The position numbers and the translations under genes were made by a program. From the NCBI RefSeq assembly GCF_025602895.1, contig NW_026516216.1:310001-374000 (forward strand): a stretch of 64,000 bases of DNA. Reading direction: 5' to 3'. This stretch comes from Polychytrium aggregatum. Its lineage: Eukaryota > Chytridiomycota > Chytridiomycetes > Polychytriales. The notes beneath the pieces are model-generated. The model was not told the origin of the DNA. It searched no databases and was given only the letters and a program-made list of their open reading frames with translations. Position 1 is the stretch's first letter. Every line of letters starts with the position of its first letter. Positions 9,031 through 57,662 of this stretch are shown piece after piece.

Positions 9031-11135
9031 ATGGTCATCACCGGCAACTCGGTCAAATCCCAGAATATCCCTGGGAGCCCGCTCACGCCTCGCCGACAGA
9101 ACGCCGTCGGCAAGGCCGGCCGTTCGCCGCGAAACTTCCATTGCTCGCCGCGTGGCATGATCAATCTGCCCCCCTTTTCGGCCAAATCACCGGTCGTGGT
9201 AAAGTCGCCAAAGTCAGTCGTCCAGCACCAAAACGTGCTGCAGCCCTCGCCCAAGCCCGGCATCACCAAACGGCGTGTCGAGGCCGTGGCTCGGCAGCAG
9301 AGCCCCCGCAAGGTCCTTCCCAGCAAAAACAAAACCGTGAGTAGCGGCTCCCGTCAATCGTCTTTGCTTTTGTCTCGGCCGGCTTGCGGATTGGGGCTCG
9401 CCCTCGTGCTACGAGAGCCAGAGCTTGCAGGCGAATGACTTGCCCAAGTGCATGTTGTGAACGCAGTTTCCAGGACCAGGGCATCCACGGATGGGCAGCC
9501 ACAGGCATCATGGTCCACGTTTTGCTACTGGCTCTGCCACGCTTGCGGCTGCGGATACGAGGCTAACATCTCGTGGTATGGGGTTTTTGCCTCACCGGCT
9601 CCGCCCACGGCCGCTACCCAAAAGTATGACCGCTTCATACCCAGCCGCGCGGCAATGGACCTGGCCACCTCCCAGTTCAATATGTCGATCCCAAGTCAAA
9701 CGTCAGCGTGTCATCTGGACGCCTCCAGCCTGGCTTACCAAGAAGAGCTCGCCAAGGCGTACGGGGTCGAGATCAACAAGCGCATTCTCGCCTTCAATGT
9801 CGAGGCGCCGTCTTCGGAGAAGCACGATGTTCGAGCAACCTGGAATCGCCCGCTCAAGCCCGCCTACCACAAAACCAAGAGACGGATCCCCCTGGAGCCC
9901 GTCCGGGTCCTGGATGCCCCAGGGATGGTCGATGACTATTATCTTAACCTGCTGCACTGGTCGTCCCAGAACGTGCTGGCCGTGGCCTTGGATAAGACCA
10001 TCTTCATGTGGCATGCCGACAGCGGCGATGTCGTCGAGTTCTGCAACACGTCTGACACCGACTCGATCGCGTCGCTCCAGTTCGACGCCAGCGGCGATAT
10101 CTTGGCGATCGGAACACACTCGGGCGAGACACAAATATGGAATGTCGAGAAACGGTCCAAAATCCGAACGATGAAGGGCCGCCTGAGCCGGGTCGGTGTT
10201 CTGTCGTGGGACAAGCACATCTTGTCGGCTGGAGCACGGGATGGCTCCATCTGGAATCATGACGTGCGTGTGCAAAACCACAAAGTCTCGGAGTTCCTCG
10301 GACACTCAGAAGATGTCTGTGGACTCCAGTGGCGGCTCGATGGACAGCTGCTCGCCAGTGGTGGCAACGACAACCTTGTGAACATCTGGGACGCTCGCTC
10401 GTCGATTCCCAAGATCACAAAGTCCAACCACATGGCGGCCGTCAAGGTGAGCGTTGTCGCAGTGTGCATGGCAATACGGGTTGGTCTGGCGATATGCGCA
10501 TCGATGATGCTCGATGGGACATCATGCTTGTTTGTGCGGATCGCACCGCTCCTACTCTGCCTGTGGCGTCGTCAGACTTTGACAGGCGAGCGCCGATCTC
10601 GGTGGCATCTCCCAGCCTCCATGTTTTGTTATTGATGGGCCATCGGAGGCTCTGACGCTGAATGATCTCTGTTGTTTGCCAGGCTGTAGCCTGGTGCCCA
10701 TGGCAGCTCAATCTACTGGCCACCGGCGGAGGAACATACGACAGGATGATCCACTTTTGGAACTCGACGACGTCTTCAAAGTCTGCATCGATCGACACCG
10801 GTTCTCAAGTAACCTCGATCATCTGGTCCCGCCAGTACAAGGAGCTGCTCTCTTCGCACGGCAACACCACCAACGGAGCTCACGGCTCACTGCGCAACCA
10901 TCTCACTCTCTGGAACTACCCTTCGCTCAACAAGGTCGCCGATCTCGGTGGACACGAGTCCCGCATCCTGCACACGGCCTTGAGTCCCGATGGCGAGACG
11001 GTCGCATCGACGGCTCCGGATGAACATCTCAAGTTCTGGAAGGCATGGGAAGCCAAACCCAAGACCAAAGCCAAGGCGGCAGCGGCATCGCTACCGGGCA
11101 TCACTGGCGACGTGCAGAAGATGAATATCCGCTAG
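9031..11135 (+). CDS. CDC20: APC/C activator Cdc20 (Fizzy), WD40 protein
   Basis: Three exons (9031-9336, 9625-10446, 10683-11135), all phase 0, give 526 aa. Exon 2 opens at the C-box (DRFIPSR, residues 104-110), which docks on the anaphase-promoting complex. The basic, Ser/Pro-rich N-terminus precedes it. A seven-bladed WD40 propeller follows, with family signatures VLDAPGMVDDYYLNLLHWSS, SGGNDNLVNIWD and AVAWCPWQLNLLATGGG. The protein ends in Ile-Arg, the IR tail that binds TPR subunits of the APC/C. The propeller opening and the ILAFN element before it fit Cdc20 better than Cdh1. Cdc20 recruits securin and mitotic cyclins for ubiquitination at anaphase and is the target of the spindle checkpoint. 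The 288-base first intron has a CTAAC branch point near 9563. Confidence 0.95.
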
Positions 11136-21672: not shown

Positions 21673-24627
21673 CTAGTTCGAGAACAGCGAAAGCATAGCC
21701 AACATATACTCGAGAGTTCTCAGGGCAATCAAGCCCTCGATCAGGTCGGAAGTTGTTTCGTTATCCTCGTCCAGGTCTTCAACGATAATGTCGGGCCGAT
21801 AGGACTGGATGGCTGATGCAAGGTCCTGAGCACTCGAGTTTGACGGATGCAGCTCAAGTTTCTCCAGATTGGGCATCTGTGGCATTCCAGCCACCAGTTC
21901 CGTCGACAGGCTCGATCCTACGGTGAGAGTCTTGAGAGACTCCAGTGTCGGAGCCAGTCCCTCGAGGCTTTCCACTGAGCCCGAAAGATCAAGGCACTCC
22001 AGCATTGGCATCAACGGACACCCCTCGAACTTTGTGGCGCCATCACTGCGCTCGTTTGTGTTTGCAATTCGAAGGGTCTTCAGCACAGGCAAAATCGGCG
22101 GAAGACCCGTCAAGTTCTTGAGGGATTGAGGAAGCACCAGGACCTCCAGATTCGGGACTTCGGGGAAGCCCTGCAGCGACTCCAGAGACGAGCACGATTG
22201 CAGCGACAGTTCCACAAGCGATTCCAAGCACACGGACGCAATGTCGAGGGACGTGATACTGTCAGGGAGCTGAAGCGAGCGCAAACTGGGGAGACTGACG
22301 AGACCACAGAGGGACTGCAGATCGCCGCATTTCGAGATGTCCAGGACTCGGAGGTCTTGAAGAGAAGACATCCCCTCCAGGGTCTCGATCGACGATGGGA
22401 GCTCGAGCTTCGAAATCGATCCCATGCTCGACAGTCCTTGGAGCGATTTCAGGTTTTTGCAGATGGTGAGTTCAAAGTTGACGAGCGAATCAAGCGACGA
22501 CGGCATGCCTTCGAGCGATTCAATGGACGACGGGAGTCGGAGGCAGATCAACAGAGGCATCTCCACCATTCCCACGAGCGACTTGAGGCCCTCTACCTCC
22601 TCCAGGTGCAGATGTTTTGCCCAGCCACAGAACTCGGCTATGTACTCCAGGTTGTCAAGAGGGCCCGTGATCCAAAGTTCTTCCAGAGCAGGCAGTGGCG
22701 GTGACTTGATGACGGACTTGAAGTCTCCGTATGATCGCAACCAGACAGTCTTGACTGACTCAAATGTCTTGTCAAGCCCATCCAAACCGACCAGTGACGT
22801 GGACAGCCACATGGCTTCGAGCGATGGCATGAGCGAGGCGAGCGAGCCATCCGATGAAAGGTAATCTTGGTATTCTGGGAGCGACCGAACCCAGTCGGCC
22901 CAATCGGACAAACTCAATGCCCCCTCGCTCGGATGTGGCAGCTTCAGCGACTTCAAGCTGGGGAGCGGATGCAGGCCCTTGAGCGAGCTGAGGAGGCAGC
23001 ACTTGGACATGTCCAGGGTCTCGAGTTGCTTGAGATCGGAGGGCATCCCGTCCAGCGAGCGAAGAGACTCGGGCAGTTCAAGCGACTCGAGTCGGGGCAT
23101 GGAGGACATGCCCTTGAGGGACACAAGCCTCTCGCAATGTGAGAGATCAAGCGACTTTAAGTCCTCGAGACAGCTTGGTAGCCCTTCGAGGCTCTCGATA
23201 GACTCTGGAAGCTCGAGCACGGACAGAGACGATGGTGAAGCCATAAATTCCAATGAGGTCAGTAGATTGCAGCGCCTCAAGTTGAGGGTGTGAAGGCACT
23301 GGAGTGTTTCGGGCATTCCTTTGAGGGTTTGGATTCCACTCGGTAAGATAAGGATGCCCAGATTCGGGATGGACGGCATTCCATCCAGTGACGAGAGCTT
23401 GGAGCAGCTGCTCAGGTCGAGCACCCTAAGACTCTCGAGGCCGGAGGGCATTCCGGCAAGTGTCTCGATCGAGTCCGGAAGAGTCAGGCTGGTAAGCTGG
23501 GGCATCTGTGCAAGGCCAGCCAGTGATGAAACATTGTTGCACGCAGAGATGTCCAACTCAATGAGCGAGGGCAGACACTCTGGCATCCCTTCGAAGCTGC
23601 GGCCCGTGCTTTCGATAACGAGCTTGGTGAGGTCCGGCATCGCAGGCATCCCGGTCATGTTTATAGTGGTCTCGGACCGGTCGCGGATACACAGTGTAGC
23701 AATTTGAGTGATCACTTGTGGCCATCCGGACAACGAAGAGAACGAACAGTTGGTCAGATGGAGAACCTCGACGTATATGTTGTTGAGAAAGTGAGTTTCG
23801 TGAGGGAGAAGGTGCGACCACTGCTCGTCAGTGTGGAATGGATGCTCGGCAAAGCGGATGATAGTTCGTGTCGGCGTTGGTGAAGAAAAGATTGATGATA
23901 GCAGGCGACAGGAGGAACATTGCTGGGAGTAGGCGATCCAGGAACTGTCCATCAAGTTGAACTGGTGGGCGGGGCTGAGGTCATTCAGATCATCGGGAGT
24001 AAGAGCTGCCACTTGGCACGGACAGGCGCCACCAGTCGACTGGAACGTATCCGGTAAGATCGCTCCGGCGATCTCTCGCAGTTTCTCGGATTGTTCCATG
24101 GCCCGCCAGAGGGCCAACTCCTTCTGATAGGAAGAGAACCCAGGCGGGAGGTCCGTCGTTCGTTTGTAGAAGCAGTAGCATCCCTCGAGGAGGAGTCTTC
24201 GATGAGCGGGTTCGAGATACACCGTTCTGGCTTTGAAGGCGTCGATATTGATTCCCATATCGCGGCAAAAGTACTCCATCCAGATATCGCTTGGGATGAG
24301 GGCCAGGATGCCCTTGTGCTCTTTGGCAAGCTGAGGGAGTCTTGAGAGCGTGGTGAGATCGATGTTCTCGAGGAAGGCGTCGTTGCAGATGAGTACGGTG
24401 AGGAGGTCCTGCTCGACGAGGGACGAGTGGACAAGGGCACCTTGCCGCTCTGCAACACCAGGCTCGGGCACATTGGCCAGGGGAGCGCTGGTCGAGCATT
24501 CTTGGGCATCAGAACATGAAATGTCCTCGTTTGGCATGGCATTGGCAGCAACGCTGTCCAACCCGAGCCCAAACACGGCTGTGGTGTCATGGTGAAGTGC
24601 ATTGAGAGTGCAAACAGGTTCGGACAT
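21673..24627 (-). CDS. Large intronless leucine-rich-repeat protein
   Basis: One uninterrupted frame of 984 aa. The first 280 residues lack repeats. They contain a helical stretch around residues 95-150 (LIPSDIWMEYFCRDMG), weakly reminiscent of an F-box, and a Cys-rich patch. From about residue 310 to the end, roughly a dozen modules of about 46 residues follow. Each is two LRRs of the type LxxLDLSxCxxLxSLxGM and MPxLxxLxLPxSIxxLEG. Near residues 575-690 the modules are degenerate. No signal peptide or membrane helix is seen, so it is probably intracellular. LRR arrays bind proteins, but the partner cannot be deduced. In a region where nearly all genes have several introns, a 3-kb gene with none suggests recent expansion, retroposition or transfer. 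Confidence 0.8.
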   Translation of the reverse strand: MSEPVCTLNALHHDTTAVFGLGLDSVAANAMPNEDISCSDAQECSTSAPLANVPEPGVAERQGALVHSSLVEQDLLTVLICNDAFLENIDLTTLSRLPQLAKEHKGILALIPSDIWMEYFCRDMGINIDAFKARTVYLEPAHRRLLLEGCYCFYKRTTDLPPGFSSYQKELALWRAMEQSEKLREIAGAILPDTFQSTGGACPCQVAALTPDDLNDLSPAHQFNLMDSSWIAYSQQCSSCRLLSSIFSSPTPTRTIIRFAEHPFHTDEQWSHLLPHETHFLNNIYVEVLHLTNCSFSSLSGWPQVITQIATLCIRDRSETTINMTGMPAMPDLTKLVIESTGRSFEGMPECLPSLIELDISACNNVSSLAGLAQMPQLTSLTLPDSIETLAGMPSGLESLRVLDLSSCSKLSSLDGMPSIPNLGILILPSGIQTLKGMPETLQCLHTLNLRRCNLLTSLEFMASPSSLSVLELPESIESLEGLPSCLEDLKSLDLSHCERLVSLKGMSSMPRLESLELPESLRSLDGMPSDLKQLETLDMSKCCLLSSLKGLHPLPSLKSLKLPHPSEGALSLSDWADWVRSLPEYQDYLSSDGSLASLMPSLEAMWLSTSLVGLDGLDKTFESVKTVWLRSYGDFKSVIKSPPLPALEELWITGPLDNLEYIAEFCGWAKHLHLEEVEGLKSLVGMVEMPLLICLRLPSSIESLEGMPSSLDSLVNFELTICKNLKSLQGLSSMGSISKLELPSSIETLEGMSSLQDLRVLDISKCGDLQSLCGLVSLPSLRSLQLPDSITSLDIASVCLESLVELSLQSCSSLESLQGFPEVPNLEVLVLPQSLKNLTGLPPILPVLKTLRIANTNERSDGATKFEGCPLMPMLECLDLSGSVESLEGLAPTLESLKTLTVGSSLSTELVAGMPQMPNLEKLELHPSNSSAQDLASAIQSYRPDIIVEDLDEDNETTSDLIEGLIALRTLEYMLAMLSLFSN

Positions 24628-24827
24628 GGCGGCGGAGATGAATCAGGTCCAAATCAGGAAGAGGGATGGTCGATGAGGAATCGGATGCAGAGGCGAGACG
24701 AAGAGGCGAGACGAAGAGGCAAGATGGAGAGGCGGGGGTCAGGAAGCCGTCCCCGAATATATGCTGGGTGCGGCCGGTATCACATCGCCAGCGTCGAACC
24801 ACTCAGAGGCAGGGGATGATACCGGGG

Positions 24828-33381: not shown

Positions 33382-35700
33382 ATGACCAACTCGTTTCCTT
33401 GGGCAAAGGTCATCAACGACCCGATTCATGGACACATCAAAGTGGATCCGGTCGCAATGGATTTCATCGTACGTACGGGCACCTCTCATCCGTGCCGACA
33501 GCAAGCTGCATTGGGTCCTCGTGGTCAGCCATCCAGCTGTCGCATTGCTCCGTGGCCATCTCTGTGCTGACACACAGCGAGAGCCCGCAATTAGGGACGC
33601 TGCAGCATATCTGGCAATCCAGGCTGTGGCGCTTTCGGCGGCAAATGCCCCCCCCCTCCTGCTTGCTGACCATCGTTTTCTGCAGGACACGCCTGAGTTC
33701 CAGCGTCTTCGGGATCTAAAGCAGCTTGGAGCCGTCTACTACGTTTTCCCGGGTGAGCAGCCACCGCTCTGCCTGCTCTTGTCTGACTTCTCTGGCTACT
33801 CCGTACGATCTGTCTGGTCTGAATATGCCCTGTTGGTCACCTCTTTCGGCGCATCCCACCTCCGCCTCGCGGCAACCGGCATCAACCTCTCACACTGCCG
33901 TTTCCAACCAGGCGCATCGCACAATCGCTTCGAGCACTCGGTTGGAGTCTACCACCTCGCCTCGCAGCTGGTCAATCGCTTCAGGGCAGAGCAGCCCGAG
34001 CTCGACATTGACGAGAGCGACGTCAAGTGCGTCGGTCTCGCCGGCCTCTGTCACGACCTCGGCCACGGCCCGTTCTCGCATACCTTTGACCATGTCTTTA
34101 TCAAGAAGGTCCGGCCCGATATCCAGTGGACGCACGAAGTGGCTAGCGAGATGATGCTGGAGCAGATCGTGTCGGGCGACAACGGCATCGACCATGTAGA
34201 TACCTCGGAGATGAAGTTCATCAAGAGCCTGATCCAGGGCGAGTCCAAACCTGGGGAGACACATAGACGGAGAGAGAAGCAGTTCCTCTTTGACATTGTC
34301 GCCAACAAGCGCAATTCGATCGATGTCGACAAGGTGCGTATGCGGGCCAGCGATCGACGGGGCCGTGGGGCTCGGACTTTGGAATTCGGAGGACGCCTGA
34401 GCAGCAGCGGTTGTTGGGCCAGGTCGATATCCAGGCTATCCTTGCTCACGGCCTGCACAGTTTGACTATATTAAGCGAGACTCGTTCAACATCGGCACGA
34501 GCTCAAGCTTTGCTCTAGACCGCCTCATGAACCTGTCGCGGGTCGTCGAGAACCAGATCTGCTACTCCTTCAAGGACACCTTCAACATATACGAGGTAAA
34601 GCCTGTGGGGCCGTCGCCGAGCACGGGGCTGGGTCCGCAACGGCTTTGTTTCGGCGGCGAATATGTGGATCCGACTGCAAACCTCATCGCTGTTGCCTTC
34701 GGATCTGCAGCTCTTCCACACTCGATACTCGCTGTTCAAGCGCGTATACACCCACAAGGTCGTCAAGGCGGTCGAGCTGATGATTGTGGATGCCCTCGTT
34801 GCGGCCGACCCGCACTTGAACATCTCGTCCATGATCGACGATCCGGAGCGGTACGTGACCCTGAACGACACCATCATTGGCGAGATTGAACGGAGCAAGT
34901 TGCCAGAGTTGGCCGAGTCACGGTCTGTGATCCAGCGCATCCGCCGCCGGCAGCTCTACCGGTGTGTTGACGAAGTAATCGAGCCCCCGGGCTTCCGCGC
35001 GGCCCTGCGTGACGAAGTCAATATCCAGAACATCCTTGCCCACCAGCCCGCTGGTGCCGGACTGCGCGAGAGCGACATTTATCTGGACATGGGTAGCCTC
35101 AACTTTTCGATGAAGGACCGCAACCCGGTCGACAATGTCAAGTTCTACGGCAAGTACAAGCCCGATGAGCCGTTCCACATCCGCAAGGACAATGTCTCGC
35201 TGCTGATTCCTGACAACTATGAGGAGAACGTGCTCCGGATCTTTGCCCGCGACGAAAACAAGATGAAGAGCATCCAGACGGCCTTCCGCAAGTGGGTCGA
35301 CCAAATCAATGTCGAGCTCCGGGGCCGCTCGGTGATCGAGGACGACTCAGATCGGCTGAGCCTTGGATATGAGCGCGGCGACTCCCAGCGCGACCGGAGC
35401 TGGTCGCCCCAGCGCAATTCTGGCCGGTTCAGCTACGGCTACGGCTACGGGTCCGGTCCCGGCTACGGATCCGCCAGCACATCAACGACCCCGTCGCCCT
35501 CCAAGTCAGCGACAAGCATATACGCGGCGATTCAGTCTCGGTCCCCGTCGCTCCCTCCGCTACCCGATTGCGGACGAATCGCAGCCGAGCCGTCGGGGTC
35601 ACAGACGCCCGTCCGAGGACTGACGCCGAGCCAAGGCAAAACCCTGCCTCAAAACTTTGCACCGTCACCAAAGAAGCGCAAGCACTCGGAGTTTATGTGA
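33382..35700 (+). CDS. SAMHD1-like HD-domain phosphohydrolase
   Basis: Five exons (33382-33468, 33686-33752, 33912-34333, 34461-34595, 34711-35700) give 566 aa. It opens [19 protein letters not shown], the typical SAMHD1/dNTPase start, and has no SAM domain. The HD metal site is complete: His60 ([13 protein letters not shown]), His99-Asp100 ([16 protein letters not shown]) and Asp191 (IDVDK, followed by FDY in the next exon). [16 protein letters not shown] is the family helix after the catalytic core. SAMHD1 hydrolyses dNTPs to nucleosides plus triphosphate and limits the nucleotide pool; the fungal relative probably does the same. The C-terminus has a Tyr/Gly-rich stretch ([13 protein letters not shown]) and ends in a basic KKRKHSEFM, possibly a nuclear signal. 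It is divergent from Ku80. Confidence 0.92.
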
Positions 35701-53190: not shown

Positions 53191-56100
53191 ATGACCAGCA
53201 CAGCAATGCCGGCGCCACTGGACCAAATCATGCATCATCTTCCGTCGATCGCCTTGAGCGCGATCACCGCCGTGGTCGCTGTCGCTGTGAGCCAGGCTTT
53301 GAGATCATACGACGCCTGGGGTTTCGTGGTCGTCGGCCTTGCGGCGATCGCGGCTGGCACAACAGGAGCCTTTGCCTGGTACTGCTGGTCAATGAAGCAG
53401 CAGCAGTTGACGACGAAACAGAGAAAAGCGAAGGAGTTTCTGGAGACCCTCCATCTCGACTCGTACTGGACAAAGTTCCTCGACAAGGGCTGGGACAGTA
53501 TGGAGCTGGTGAGGCCGGACGCGGAGTGAGAGCCCGTCGTCGCGCCGGCTGGGATGAGCGTCTGGTTGATGCATGCACGGAATGATGAGCATCGCCATAC
53601 TGTCGTCCTCACGCTCTCCCACATGCGTCCCGAACAGATCCTCGCAATGGACGATCTTGCCCTTCAAGATGTGGGGCTTCAGTTTGGCCACATCTCCAAG
53701 TTCCATCGGGCAGCCTCAAAGGCAAAGTCTGAGCTTTTTGACAATGCGGCCGAGCCGACCCTCCCGGCACCGAGTCCATCGGACCAGATCGAGGTCTACA
53801 GCGCACCGAAGCAGCCGTGTCCTATCAGTGTTCCTGCCATCGCCGCTCCGTCAGAGAAGGAGATGTCCGCCGAGCCCAGTTCCAGGCCCGAGCCTCCACC
53901 GCCTGTTTCGCAGCGGTCTTCGCTCAAACGGCATGGCATTCATCCTCCTTTTCTCGCGGCGCCTGTAGCCACACCAGTCATCAATGTGATGGGTCCGGCG
54001 GACGTCCTGGCGGTACCGGGCGAGACGGCGGCGGGTGGGGCCCAGTTTCCAAGGGTGGCCCTCTCTCCGAGCGTCGCCACTCTTGTTGCAGGCAGCAACA
54101 TAGAGATCACAAGTCCGAAAGAGCAATACTCCGACGCCGAGCCCAGCATCGACAATCAAGATGCAGCAGCAGTATTCAAGGCGGATGGCTTGACGCCTTT
54201 GTCGCTTGATTTGACGGCCGATGCTCTGGTGAGCCAATTGAAAAGCGGGCCTCAGCCAGACTCTGCGGTCCAAGTCTCGCCAAGTCAAGGAAACCCGTGC
54301 TCCCCTCCTCCGATGTCGATATCCAACTCGGAGCGCAGTTTGGACACAATCAAGGACGGCAGCAACCAAGTTAGTGGTGCGAACGAGTGCCAACGGGAGG
54401 GAGACACCGCCGATCCAGTCGTATCTCAAGAGCATGTGCTGGATGCGACGAAGCAGATCCGGGACCTCGAGGTCGCCGACTGGCGATGTGCGAACCAGGT
54501 GTGCGACCATGACTTTTTCATGAGGTACGTTCCGATTTCAGCAAGAATCGCTGCTGTTCCGTTTGGGCAGGATGGGGCGAGAGAGTTGTGCAGAGCTTAA
54601 CCGACGGCTGCCACTGATGGAACATGATCAGCTATCGAGTCCGGAACGACAAGGAATCTGTGCGTGCGCTCTATTGTGCCATGATGGCCAAGCCCCACAG
54701 CTACCACATCTACTTTGACGAGCTGTGTCTAAACAATGGACAAGACTGGGAAATCGGATTCATCAACGGACTCAAGCGATCCAAAGTCATCTTGCTCTTC
54801 GTGTCCGAGGGAGGGCTGGAGCGGATGAAGCTGGCCCACGAGCAGCCCGATAACTTGTTGCTGGAGGTGAGACTGGGCGAGGCTGGAAGGCCATTCGCCT
54901 ATCGAGTGAGGCGGCATCTAGCTGATGTCTCAAGTGGCGTCAGGGAGGTTCCGCACAAGGCCTCTCTATTGGGTCTTTGACTAACAATGCGGCCGATGCC
55001 GTTGCTCGTCGACGTGTGCTGGTCGGACCTGCATTAATGTCACAGTGGGAGCTTTCTCTCGATCTCGAAAACGCGATTGTCCAGCCGATCCTCATCGACC
55101 AGATCGTTCAGATCGACGACGAGACCTACTCCAAGCCGTTCTTCCCTCTTCTCAGCGAGTTTCCCGACAAGATGCCGATCCATCCGCGCAGCTCCAGGAA
55201 AAAAACGATTCGGAGAATTCTCGAGGACTTGATGAAGAAACAGGCCGTGAAACTGTCGTACTCTGGTGGTGCTCGTCAGTGAGTATCAGGTTCTCGCTCA
55301 GCCGGTTTTGTTGCTGGGAATGTTTTTCGTCGATCGGAAGAGAGATCCTTCGACATTGTGGGCATAGAATTCGCCAACAAGTCACTGGAAACGACAGATG
55401 CACTGACACTCTGCGCCTTGCCCAAGACTGGTGTCGTCTGTGTTGGAGCTGCGTGCCAAACTACAGCATGCTTGTGAATCCAAGACGACTGAAAAGCCAG
55501 CGATACAGAGCTTGATGTTGACGGCCAAAGAAGAAACCCAACTCCTCTCGCTCCTGCGACCCTTTCACCAAACTGCCGAGCTCCAGGCCCAGCGCGAGCT
55601 ATACGCCAAAGACACGCGGCTGTGGCTATGTGAAGAGGTCATGGAGTGGGTCGAGAAGGGACAGGGCTTGCTCTGGTGGATCATGGGCGAAAGTGGCATT
55701 GGCAAGTCCGTGTTCAGTTCGCTGTTGATTCACGAGCTCAAGGCACGCGGCCAGCTGGCAGGGTATTACTTCTGCAAGGGCAACCACGAAGAGCGAAGCA
55801 GAGTCCGCAATCTGATCCAGACCCTGGTCTTTCAAATGGCCTTGTGGAATGCCGCATTTGGGCGACAGATCCTGTCGAGCGGATGGAGTCTGTCGGGGAT
55901 GGAATGCTTGAACTCGGCCGATCTGTTCGGCTGCTTGATTACCGGCTCACTCAGACAGCTCAGAAAGAATGGACAGAAGGACAAACTCAAAGGTGTCTTT
56001 GTGATCGATGGGCTGGACGAGTGTCCTGAACGAACGCAACTACTTGACATCTTGACGCGGGACGGCGCAGAGGCATCGCTGTCGGGGCTCAAGTTTTTGC

Positions 56101-57662
56101 TGACAGCCCGGTCGGATACGGGCATCCAGGGTGCAGTCCCGGCAACGGCACAAACCGTCCTGGATCCACGATCAAGCAGGAATAGAGAAGACGCCATGAT
56201 CTACATCGTCAGGCAGCTCAAGAGCCATGTTGATCAAGCGGACATCAGCGCCGTGGCTCAGCAGATGCTGGAGCAGTCCAAGGGCAATTTCATGTGGATC
56301 CGGCTGGCAACAGACACTCTTCTAAAACAAGACGAGTCCCAGAAGAAAGGAGTCAAAGCCAAGATCGGGGCCTTCTTCAAAAACATCCGAGACAAGAGTC
56401 CACTGTCCCGAAAAAGGTCATTGCTGGATGATTCTGACCGCGAGCCGCGGATCCGGCTGACCACGGGACACTTGCATCCTTTTCGCAAGCTGGACATTAA
56501 CCAGCTTTACGGACGGATTTTTGACGCACTCTTTGAGATCCCACGCGACGCCCCAGCGAAGGCACCAGAGCGCGAACAGCTCCAGAGCCTTCTCCGGGTC
56601 CTTGGTGCTGCAATGGAACCCATGAGATTGCAGGTGCTCATGGACTTTACCGGCTTGAGCCGGCAAGATAGCAAGAAGTACATTCGGAAGCTCAGCCTGG
56701 TGGTTTGTCCGGAGATCTTCCAGAACTGGAATGCCAACGTCGTTGAGTTCAACCACAGGCTTGTGACAGACTTTCTGAGCAATGTTTTCCTGACAGCCAA
56801 CAAAGAATACAGCCTCGTCAACGGCTACCACGCCCAGATGGCAATCGCGTCGCTCGAGCTGATTCTGAAGCAGCCCAAGCCAGCCAACATCTGCGGACTC
56901 AAGAGAAAGCACGACGAGATTGCCGACATTGACGAGCTCGTCGAACGACACATCTCGAGATCAGTCAAGTACAGTTGCATCTACTGGGTTGACCACATTG
57001 CGCGCGCAAAGGAGATGAACAAGCTGAACCGAAGCCAGGAAGGCCAAGTGTGTGTGCTGGTGCGTCAGCTTCTTTCATCGCATTTACTCTACTGGATCGA
57101 AGTGCTGTCACTCGTGAACGAGCCTACGATGGCGCTGCGAAAGCTCCAGCAACTCAAGAGACTCCTATTGTTCGACTCGGCCCGACAGCCTCTGGCTGCG
57201 CTGACGAACAAGGACAGCGTGGTCGATCTTGCAATTCGACAGCTTGTGGTGCACCAGGATGCGATCGCCCAGTTCGCACCCGAGCTCTATGTGGTTCTGG
57301 GAAACTGCTTCGTGGAGCATACGGACAGTTGGTCCAGCCCACGTTGTCTGTGCGTCCCATACGCCCTGGATTTGGACTGTCCCCGCGTTAGCGAGATGGT
57401 CGAAGAACGCAAGAAACAGAATATGCAGTCAGGATCAGGAAGCTCCGAGGGCCTTGATCCCTGGGGCAGGATCTTTGCCAAGCGACCTGCGCGCTCCAAC
57501 CAACGAACCGATCAAACGGGGTCATTTATCGCCGAACGAATGCGGCGCGGTGCGCGAATGCCCATGGAATCGGCCATGGAGGAACGCAAGGGAGACGGAG
57601 GGGGGTCTCGAGCTGGACGCCCATCGCGCCACCCATGCTGCCCAAACTGCGTGATGCTCTGA
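53191..57662 (+). CDS. Membrane-anchored SAM-TIR-NACHT (NLR-like STAND) protein
   Basis: Five exons (53191-53508, 53638-54524, 54632-54866, 55046-55278, 55427-57662) give about 1302 aa. Two hydrophobic helices (about 18-37 and 44-66) are followed by a SAM domain split by intron 1 (KEFLETLHLDSYWTKFLDKG, then ILAMDDLALQDVGLQFGHIS; 77-136). A disordered linker leads to a TIR domain (about 395-545: DHDFFMSYRVRNDKESV, IYFDELCLNNGQDWEIGF, RSKVILLFVSEG, DNLLLEWELSL). Glu442 in DWEIGF sits where NADase TIRs keep the catalytic glutamate. A NACHT-type NTPase follows, with Walker A GESGIGKS (645-652) and Walker B VFVIDGLDECP (about 748-758). No C-terminal WD40, ankyrin, TPR or LRR array is seen. Such proteins act as oligomerising immune or cell-death switches. 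The last acceptor (55426) is the least certain junction. Confidence 0.85.

Follow-up and report, generated by a model that had tools for sequence, protein, structure and literature searches.

The window analysed here, a stretch of 64,000 nucleotides from contig NW_026516216.1 of Polychytrium aggregatum, carries a five-exon gene on its forward strand (Table 1). When spliced, the gene gives a frame of 1302 amino acids with no internal stop and GT-AG introns, which reads, from the N to the C terminus, as two hydrophobic helices, a SAM domain, a Pro/Ser/Ala-rich linker (about aa 141-385, by composition), a TIR domain and an NPHP3_N/NACHT NTPase.

Table 1. Features of the gene, in window coordinates
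Feature	Position	Strand	Remarks
Gene model	53191..57662	+	start 53191, stop 57662; 5 exons, 1302-aa frame
Exon 1	53191..53508	+	start codon, two-helix hydrophobic hairpin, first SAM half; spliced model
Hydrophobic helix 1, aa 19-37	53245..53301	+	19-residue Kyte-Doolittle peak of 1.98
Hydrophobic helix 2, about aa 43-64, then Lys/Arg-rich stretch	53317..53382	+	19-residue Kyte-Doolittle peak of 1.81
SAM domain, about aa 79-135, split by intron 1	53425..53724	+	SAM_1 and SAM_2 over cut-offs for segment
Intron 1, within SAM domain	53509..53637	+	best of 1910 candidate splices by SAM profile
Exon 2	53638..54524	+	second SAM half, Pro/Ser/Ala-rich linker, TIR start; spliced model
TIR domain, from about aa 388, three exons, introns 2 and 3 inside	54481..55278	+	profile of relatives
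Intron 2, within TIR	54525..54631	+	corresponding joint in paralog loci
Glu442 codon, Glu of DWE	54750..54752	+	residue of first-pass annotation; off the SARM1 glutamate position
Glu480 codon, closing exon 3; candidate NADase glutamate	54864..54866	+	aligns with Glu of SARM1 DWVHKE
Intron 3, immediately 3' of Glu480 codon, within TIR	54867..55045	+	GAG|GT donor
Intron 4, separating the TIR part from the NACHT part	55279..55426	+	counterpart in paralogs
Exon 5	55427..57662	+	NACHT-type STAND NTPase, helical region common to paralogs, unique tail
NPHP3_N/NACHT NTPase domain, aa 623-786	55620..56111	+	PF24883, E 1.7e-24
Walker A GESGIGKS, aa 645-652	55686..55709	+	lines up with paralogs
Walker B VFVIDGLDEC, aa 748-757	55995..56024	+	lines up with paralogs
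C-terminal tail, aa 1180-1302	57291..57659	+	paralogs here continue towards WD40 repeats

The exon joints were assessed by comparison with paralogs elsewhere in the genome. The splice chosen for intron 1 scored 40.5 bits against a SAM profile built without the window sequence, compared to 27.6 bits for the runner-up. Nineteen of the 20 loci in which exon 3 was read, the window included, gave a joint corresponding to intron 2, and the intron 3 donor fell at the same residue in 20/20 loci read. The intron 3 acceptor at 55045 ranked first of 11 tested, with 143.7 bits against a profile from which the window and locus L061 had been left out, compared to 138.6 bits for 55051 and 130.0 bits for the in-frame acceptor at 54943. 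The latter, which adds 34 residues after Glu480 and had been picked by a script that favours longer frames, was rejected on these scores. A counterpart of intron 4, which the first-pass annotation of this DNA had already proposed, was found in the paralogs: the donor phase was identical in all nine paralog loci printed and the acceptor corresponded in eight, none being assigned at L061, although this comparison was read by eye and some of the nine loci are near-identical. Exon 5 was 25-32 % identical to paralogs, with the longest matches covering query residues 7-628. The linker may hold more introns.

The N-terminal hydrophobic peaks agree with the two membrane helices described in the first-pass annotation, and their hydropathy makes a membrane hairpin likely. 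This part of the protein found no second match in the genome at E values up to 1. The SAM domain scored 13.5 bits in the full-length Pfam scan, below the cut-off, whereas the 63-residue SAM segment alone passed both SAM_1 (25.2 bits, cut-off 23) and SAM_2 (21.4 bits, cut-off 20.5). A profile built from six paralog SAMs, to which the window sequence did not contribute, gave it 42.0 bits, whereas 1000 shuffles reached no more than 9.3 bits, which confirms the domain originally read here. Five of eight paralog SAM segments exceeded a SAM cut-off in Pfam and three fell under, both L061 segments among the latter. Against the six-paralog profile two L061 segments scored 23.8 and 21.8 bits and a partial one 16.2 bits; a fourth L061 segment scored 4.0 bits, under its own best shuffle of 8.4.

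On its own, the window TIR reached 22.5 bits with the Pfam TIR_2 model, below the cut-off of 28, and a phmmer search with it against solved structures returned nothing up to E 10. However, a profile built from ten relatives, the window not among them, gave it 143.7 bits, which argues, by sequence, for a TIR domain as first annotated, and a paralog 44 % identical to it reached 39.9 bits with TIR_2. Searched against solved sequences, the TIR profile matched 36, of which the top 19 were all SARM1 or tir-1. The likeness to SARM1 that had been proposed for this TIR is therefore well supported.

The same cannot be said of Glu442, which had been put forward as the NADase glutamate. In the alignment with SARM1 it is Glu480 that occupies the catalytic glutamate position, a membership feature of TIR NADases. 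The position of Glu480 held Glu in 12/12 rows of one alignment (A4) and 21/21 rows of another (A2), the two having members in common. Position 442, in contrast, varied: the six A4 TIRs of the SAM-TIR-NACHT class had Glu there and the other six R, Q, K, R, P and H, and Glu442 was rejected as the catalytic residue. Glu480 is thus the candidate catalytic residue of a putative NAD+ cleavage. The Trp that SARM1 has four residues before its catalytic Glu was replaced by Asn or Ser in 12/12 rows of A4, with Asn in the window protein; hence, the TIR pocket is not identical to that of SARM1.

The NACHT NTPase with intact Walker A and B motifs was borne out by the NPHP3_N match and by alignment with 12 paralogs, which GESGIGKS and VIDGLDE matched. 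The NACHT model itself (PF05729) scored 28.5 bits in the genome search, above its cut-off of 26.7, and 24.4 bits, below it, in the protein scan. A solved-structure search with the paralog alignment (A3) was uninformative on the NACHT part, as WD40 repeats of the paralog rows dominated the best 60 of 430 rows. In that alignment the window protein was 22-29 % identical to 12 paralogs, and homology stopped near APELY. No WD40 match was found in the tail, and no repeat family in the Pfam scan of the protein; the sole WD40 profile matches within the window lay at 9439-11132, far upstream of the gene. This agrees with the earlier remark that an obvious C-terminal sensor repeat is lacking. The features of STAND/NLR membership that were present are a NACHT-type P-loop NTPase with both Walker motifs and an N-terminal effector (SAM, TIR). 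Because no C-terminal repeat sensor was found, the protein is better described as NLR-like, or as a truncated relative, than as a canonical three-part NLR.

Our analysis revealed that this domain order is not confined to the window. At 93 of the 97 NACHT places in the genome, the window included, a TIR was located no more than 2 kb upstream, although these 93 places include alleles or duplicates. Of the 18 non-seed loci tested among the paralogs, 16 had a SAM upstream of TIR (36.0-47.9 bits, with controls reaching 8.6 at the highest), and WD40 repeats occurred in all four paralog frames scanned. Since it recurs in paralogs, the order is beyond chance. The architecture had been called unusual, and this holds for the window copy, with its hairpin lacking a genome homologue, its long linker and its missing WD40 repeats, but not for the order of the domains. 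With SAM, TIR and NACHT in order and corresponding introns, the window protein belongs, judged by its sequence, to a SAM-TIR-NACHT-WD40 family, of which it is an atypical representative. The window gene was single copy, whereas many paralogs appeared as identical-scoring pairs in the assembly. There were many further TIR places in the genome. At one locus (L082) an unspliced TIR-NACHT frame of 1604 aa was discarded as proof of fusion, as the frame is simply open through the introns.

SARM1 orthologues have the domain order ARM-SAM-SAM-TIR. The window protein shares with SARM1/tir-1 a SAM upstream of TIR, but the Pfam scan gave no match to ARM, a single SAM was found and a NACHT is added after the TIR. 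The SAM profile matched a Caskin-1/Eph construct at E 2.9e-12 and the SAM of SARM1 at just 0.11. Plant TIR-NB-ARC-LRR receptors likewise fuse a TIR effector to a STAND NTPase; the window protein, however, has NACHT rather than NB-ARC and no LRR. The HET-NACHT-WD40 and NACHT-WD40 NLRs of fungi combine a NACHT core, WD40 repeats and an N-terminal effector (PMC4986451, PMC12881547). The family has in common with them the NACHT core, WD40 in the paralogs and an N-terminal TIR/HET-type effector, whereas the window protein carries TIR instead of HET (no HET match in the Pfam scan), a SAM in front, a membrane hairpin and no WD40. TIR has been reported in NLRs of Chytridiomycota, in an account whose available part makes no mention of SAM before TIR, a membrane hairpin or expansion (PMC9815663). 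Amphioxus has TIR-NACHT, TIR-SAM and TIR-NB-ARC-WD40 proteins, but as separate hybrid gene kinds, with no SAM-TIR-NACHT order mentioned in the part of that source available (PMC2575513). No description of the order was found in the literature searched, and no close bacterial or viral relatives were confirmed among 38 and 68 matches to patterns that were narrow. While TIR in chytrid NLRs is known already, the SAM-TIR-NACHT variant appears to be new.

Taken together, the initial view that the protein is NLR/STAND-like and its TIR resembles that of SARM1 is well supported. The gene product is probably a membrane-anchored receptor or helper of the NLR/STAND type, in which NACHT and SAM would cluster a SARM1-like TIR with putative NAD+-cleaving activity. 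A trigger would cause the NACHT module to exchange its nucleotide, after which oligomerization driven by NACHT and SAM would bring the TIR domains into proximity; the TIR assembly would then cleave NAD+ through the catalytic Glu480, leading to cell death or a nucleotide signal and possibly serving immunity, defence or non-self recognition. The missing WD40 sensor, the membrane hairpin and the long linker make a standard sensor NLR less likely than a helper, an executor or a sensor that operates via its membrane or linker portion.

It is also conceivable, though unlikely, that the TIR serves assembly rather than catalysis, with the protein acting at a membrane as a scaffold or decoy for the recruitment of other TIR or SAM proteins. 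The replaced SARM1 Trp in every aligned row, the missing WD40 sensor and the many other TIR places, as possible partners, are all compatible with this, but Glu480 does not vary among the aligned TIRs in either class, as a catalytic role would predict. A role in allorecognition (fusion incompatibility), as for Podospora HET-NACHT-WD40, rather than in pathogen defence would be compatible with an NAD+-cleaving receptor or helper; the family has the same NACHT-WD40 chassis with a TIR-type effector, and incompatibility is under the control of HNWD genes (PMC12881547). We nevertheless consider this role distinctly unlikely, as the organism looks flagellate and fusion between individuals may not belong to its biology. 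A decaying family member, drifting towards a pseudogene after loss of its WD40 repeats, could explain the unique tail, the low identity to the 12 paralogs and the single copy; this is quite improbable given the intact frame, GT-AG introns, Walker motifs and Glu480, and the coherent two-helix N-terminus. Finally, although the joined model was built from sequence, the mistaken joining of two adjacent genes (TM-SAM-TIR and NACHT) is barely credible, because the paralogs support the introns, with a matching joint of identical phase, and have TIR just upstream of NACHT and on its strand at nearly all places.

If the protein is active, it would link the axon-death chemistry of animals with fungal NLRs and allow a direct test of NAD+ destruction as an old opisthokont death output. 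The setting is an apparently flagellate fungus with a TIR that resembles SARM1 and a family in which SAM and TIR recur before NACHT. Such a fungus might have built a large NLR repertoire by fusing a SARM1-like SAM-TIR module to NACHT-WD40; with a shared fungal and animal SAM-TIR ancestry, SARM1 would derive, without the NTPase, from an older opisthokont receptor effector, and the window protein would act in that network as a membrane-tethered executor. We offer this wider scenario as speculation that is unlikely to hold in its entirety. Elsewhere in the genome, one locus (L032) carries a frame with TIR plus NB-ARC.

Splicing out four GT-AG introns (see table) leaves a single frame of 1302 residues at 53191-57662. 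NPHP3_N, a NACHT-type NTPase family, matched residues 623-786 in the Pfam scan (E 1.7e-24), and the NACHT model itself scored 24.4 bits in the full-length scan (cut-off 26.7) versus 28.5 in the genome search. In the full-length scan TIR_2 (22.5 bits, cut-off 28) and SAM_2 (13.5 bits, cut-off 20.5) fell below their cut-offs, and both domains were therefore put through further tests. The 63-residue SAM segment scanned alone exceeded both SAM cut-offs and scored 42.0 bits with a profile of six paralog SAMs that left out the window sequence, compared to 9.3 for the best of 1000 shuffles. The spliced TIR scored 143.7 bits with a profile from ten relatives, itself left out, and shares 44% identity with that of paralog L061, which matches TIR_2 at 39.9 bits (E 7e-10); another paralog TIR (21.8 bits) falls below the TIR_2 cut-off, as the window TIR does. 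Two hydrophobic 19-residue peaks (residues 19-37 and ~43-64) are followed by a Lys/Arg-rich stretch and, as the positive-inside rule orients membrane helices by flanking positive charge, both ends of this predicted hairpin would be cytosolic. At the sequence level, the spliced frame, the hydropathy peaks and the segment and profile scores bear out the domain set of the first-pass annotation: two hydrophobic helices, SAM, TIR and NACHT NTPase in one frame.

Introns of the window gene
Feature	Position	Strand	Splice sites
Intron 1	53509-53637	+	GT-AG
Intron 2	54525-54631	+	GT-AG
Intron 3	54867-55045	+	GT-AG
Intron 4	55279-55426	+	GT-AG

The proposed joining of the TM-SAM-TIR and NACHT parts as one gene is backed by genome-wide pairing and agreeing paralog introns. 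A search of the same genome with a paralog NACHT returned 107 rows, of which 97 places were kept once nine rows belonging to split hits and a solitary fragment of 46 residues had been set aside; the TIR set held at least 162 places (at least 150 from one search, plus the 12 of 16 from a second that were new), both counts including allelic or duplicated contigs and the searches scoring only the best candidates. Among the matches listed, 93 of the 97 NACHT places, the window's own among them, were preceded on the same strand by a TIR <2 kb away, and one of the other four sits at its contig's start. Intron 1 ranked top of 1910 candidate splices (40.5 bits, runner-up 27.6) by a SAM profile built without the window. 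Exon 3 was readable in 20 of 22 loci (window included, some near-identical), all 20 with a GAG|GT intron 3 donor immediately 3' of the conserved Glu, and 19 of them allowed the joint preceding SYRV; with a looser pattern this exon end was also recognised in L054, but not in L056. The intron 3 acceptor is probably 55045, a choice less plain than for the other joints: with a profile lacking the window and L061 it led 11 candidates (143.7 bits), followed by 55051 (138.6) and the in-frame 54943 (130.0). The intron 4 donor has identical codon phase in nine of nine paralog loci (some near-identical), and its acceptor, read by eye, yields L-(V/S/A)-P in eight, versus LVS in the window; no acceptor was assigned in L061.

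The architecture had been called unusual, which holds only in part. Of 18 non-seed paralog loci, chosen by best TIR match rather than at random, 16 had a SAM upstream of the TIR in a splice-aware scan (36.0-47.9 bits), with none in L039 and L041; over the full set of 23 stretches scanned, reverse complements reached at most 8.6 bits and shuffles 6.9. The 16 form about seven groups by similar scores and coordinates, and Pfam SAM_2 matched close upstream of the TIR at seven paralog places. The order SAM-TIR-NACHT is thus not unique, and it is the predicted hairpin and the sensor-less end that are odd. The window TM-SAM part matched nothing in the genome but itself at E up to 1, the linker spans ~245 residues, and the protein aligns with 12 paralogs to ~residue 1179, then diverges. 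WD40 repeats occur in all four paralog frames scanned; none was found downstream in the window gene, the window's sole matches falling within 9439-11132, a region whose first frame belongs to the CDC20/Fizzy type. The annotated lack of a C-terminal sensor repeat therefore stands, and the window copy is set apart by its predicted hairpin, long linker and missing sensor. In nine paralogs inspected, Met immediately precedes the SAM in five, and some upstream frame carries hydrophobic stretches >1.8 in four (L042, L045, L049 and L051, in the last within an open frame running into the SAM), so these four may have hairpins of their own.

Many paralogs are present twice in the assembly, with identical scores on two contigs, as though both haplotypes were partly present; unlike these, the window gene had no second copy among the genome matches. 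Zn_clus, a fungal family, gave 27 matches in this genome and IFT57, a ciliary protein, was located at two places, a combination that suggests a fungus with flagella. L061 (1-2060) carries two SAM-like domains in tandem, perhaps more, ahead of TIR-NACHT-WD40, unrecognised by Pfam alone. By eye, each of L060, L061 and L082 has WD40 repeats that closely resemble one another; such likeness is described for HNWD genes in the available text of PMC12881547.

A profile of 12 TIRs, six of the SAM-TIR-NACHT class and six of a second class, matched 36 sequences of solved structures at E up to 10. The top 19 were SARM1 or tir-1 (E 2.7e-8 to 5.5e-5); plant Roq1 came next (E 0.002), then bacterial and plant TIRs and, weakest, a few unrelated proteins. 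The family motif DNxxLE aligned onto SARM1 DWVHKE, whose Glu we take to be the catalytic E642, and the corresponding window residue is Glu480, a Glu in all 12 rows and in 21 of 21 second-class rows (the alignments share members). Glu442, the Glu of DWE to which the NADase position had been assigned, is Glu in all six TIRs of the SAM-TIR-NACHT class; the six others have R, Q, K, R, P and H there, and that assignment is not upheld. Four residues ahead of the Glu, SARM1 has Trp whereas every family row has Asn or Ser, which counts against an easy NADase claim. One point against common ancestry with SARM1 is that the SAM profile fits a Caskin-1/Eph construct best (E 2.9e-12) and reaches the SARM1 SAM at no better than E 0.11.

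On balance, we favour a STAND receptor or helper tethered to the membrane, whose NACHT and SAM parts would bring TIRs together so that the clustered TIR would cleave NAD+ through Glu480; the lack of a sensor speaks for a role as helper or executor. The sequence establishes the domain anatomy, from which clustering, catalysis, membrane location and role are inferred. According to the available text of PMC9815663, TIR has been reported in NLRs of Chytridiomycota, and a SAM_Ste50p family stands at N-termini of fungal NLRs. The available text of PMC4986451 reports none in chytrids. In similarly partial text, PMC2575513 lists TIR-NACHT, TIR-SAM and TIR-NB-ARC-WD40 in amphioxus and PMC12881547 describes a HET/TIR relation. 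The order SAM-TIR-NACHT is absent from the available portions of PMC7075850 and PMC7159879, and searches of the open-access literature yielded, in the text that was available, no description of such a protein.

The second class is abundant and has a single-exon TIR (L026, L030, L032, L033, L062, L064-L074, L076, L077, L079-L081). In L032, the sole frame of the class scanned, the TIR (22.6 bits with TIR_2, below cut-off) runs on into NB-ARC (26.0 bits, cut-off 23.5), an order like that of plant TIR-NB-ARC proteins, but fungal. An NB-ARC genome search gave only six matches, one (C201:290927) close downstream of a listed TIR, so for the rest of the class this order is at most putative.

Elsewhere in the window, 21676-24642 (-) holds a 989-residue leucine-rich repeat frame (LRR_4, E 1.4e-22). 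At 33386-35697 an HD-domain frame (39.6 bits) precedes a frame without Pfam match, whose residues may resemble those of SAMHD1-type dNTPases. Downstream of the window gene, from ~58430, the start of a frame resembles, by eye, a secreted LysM-type protein.
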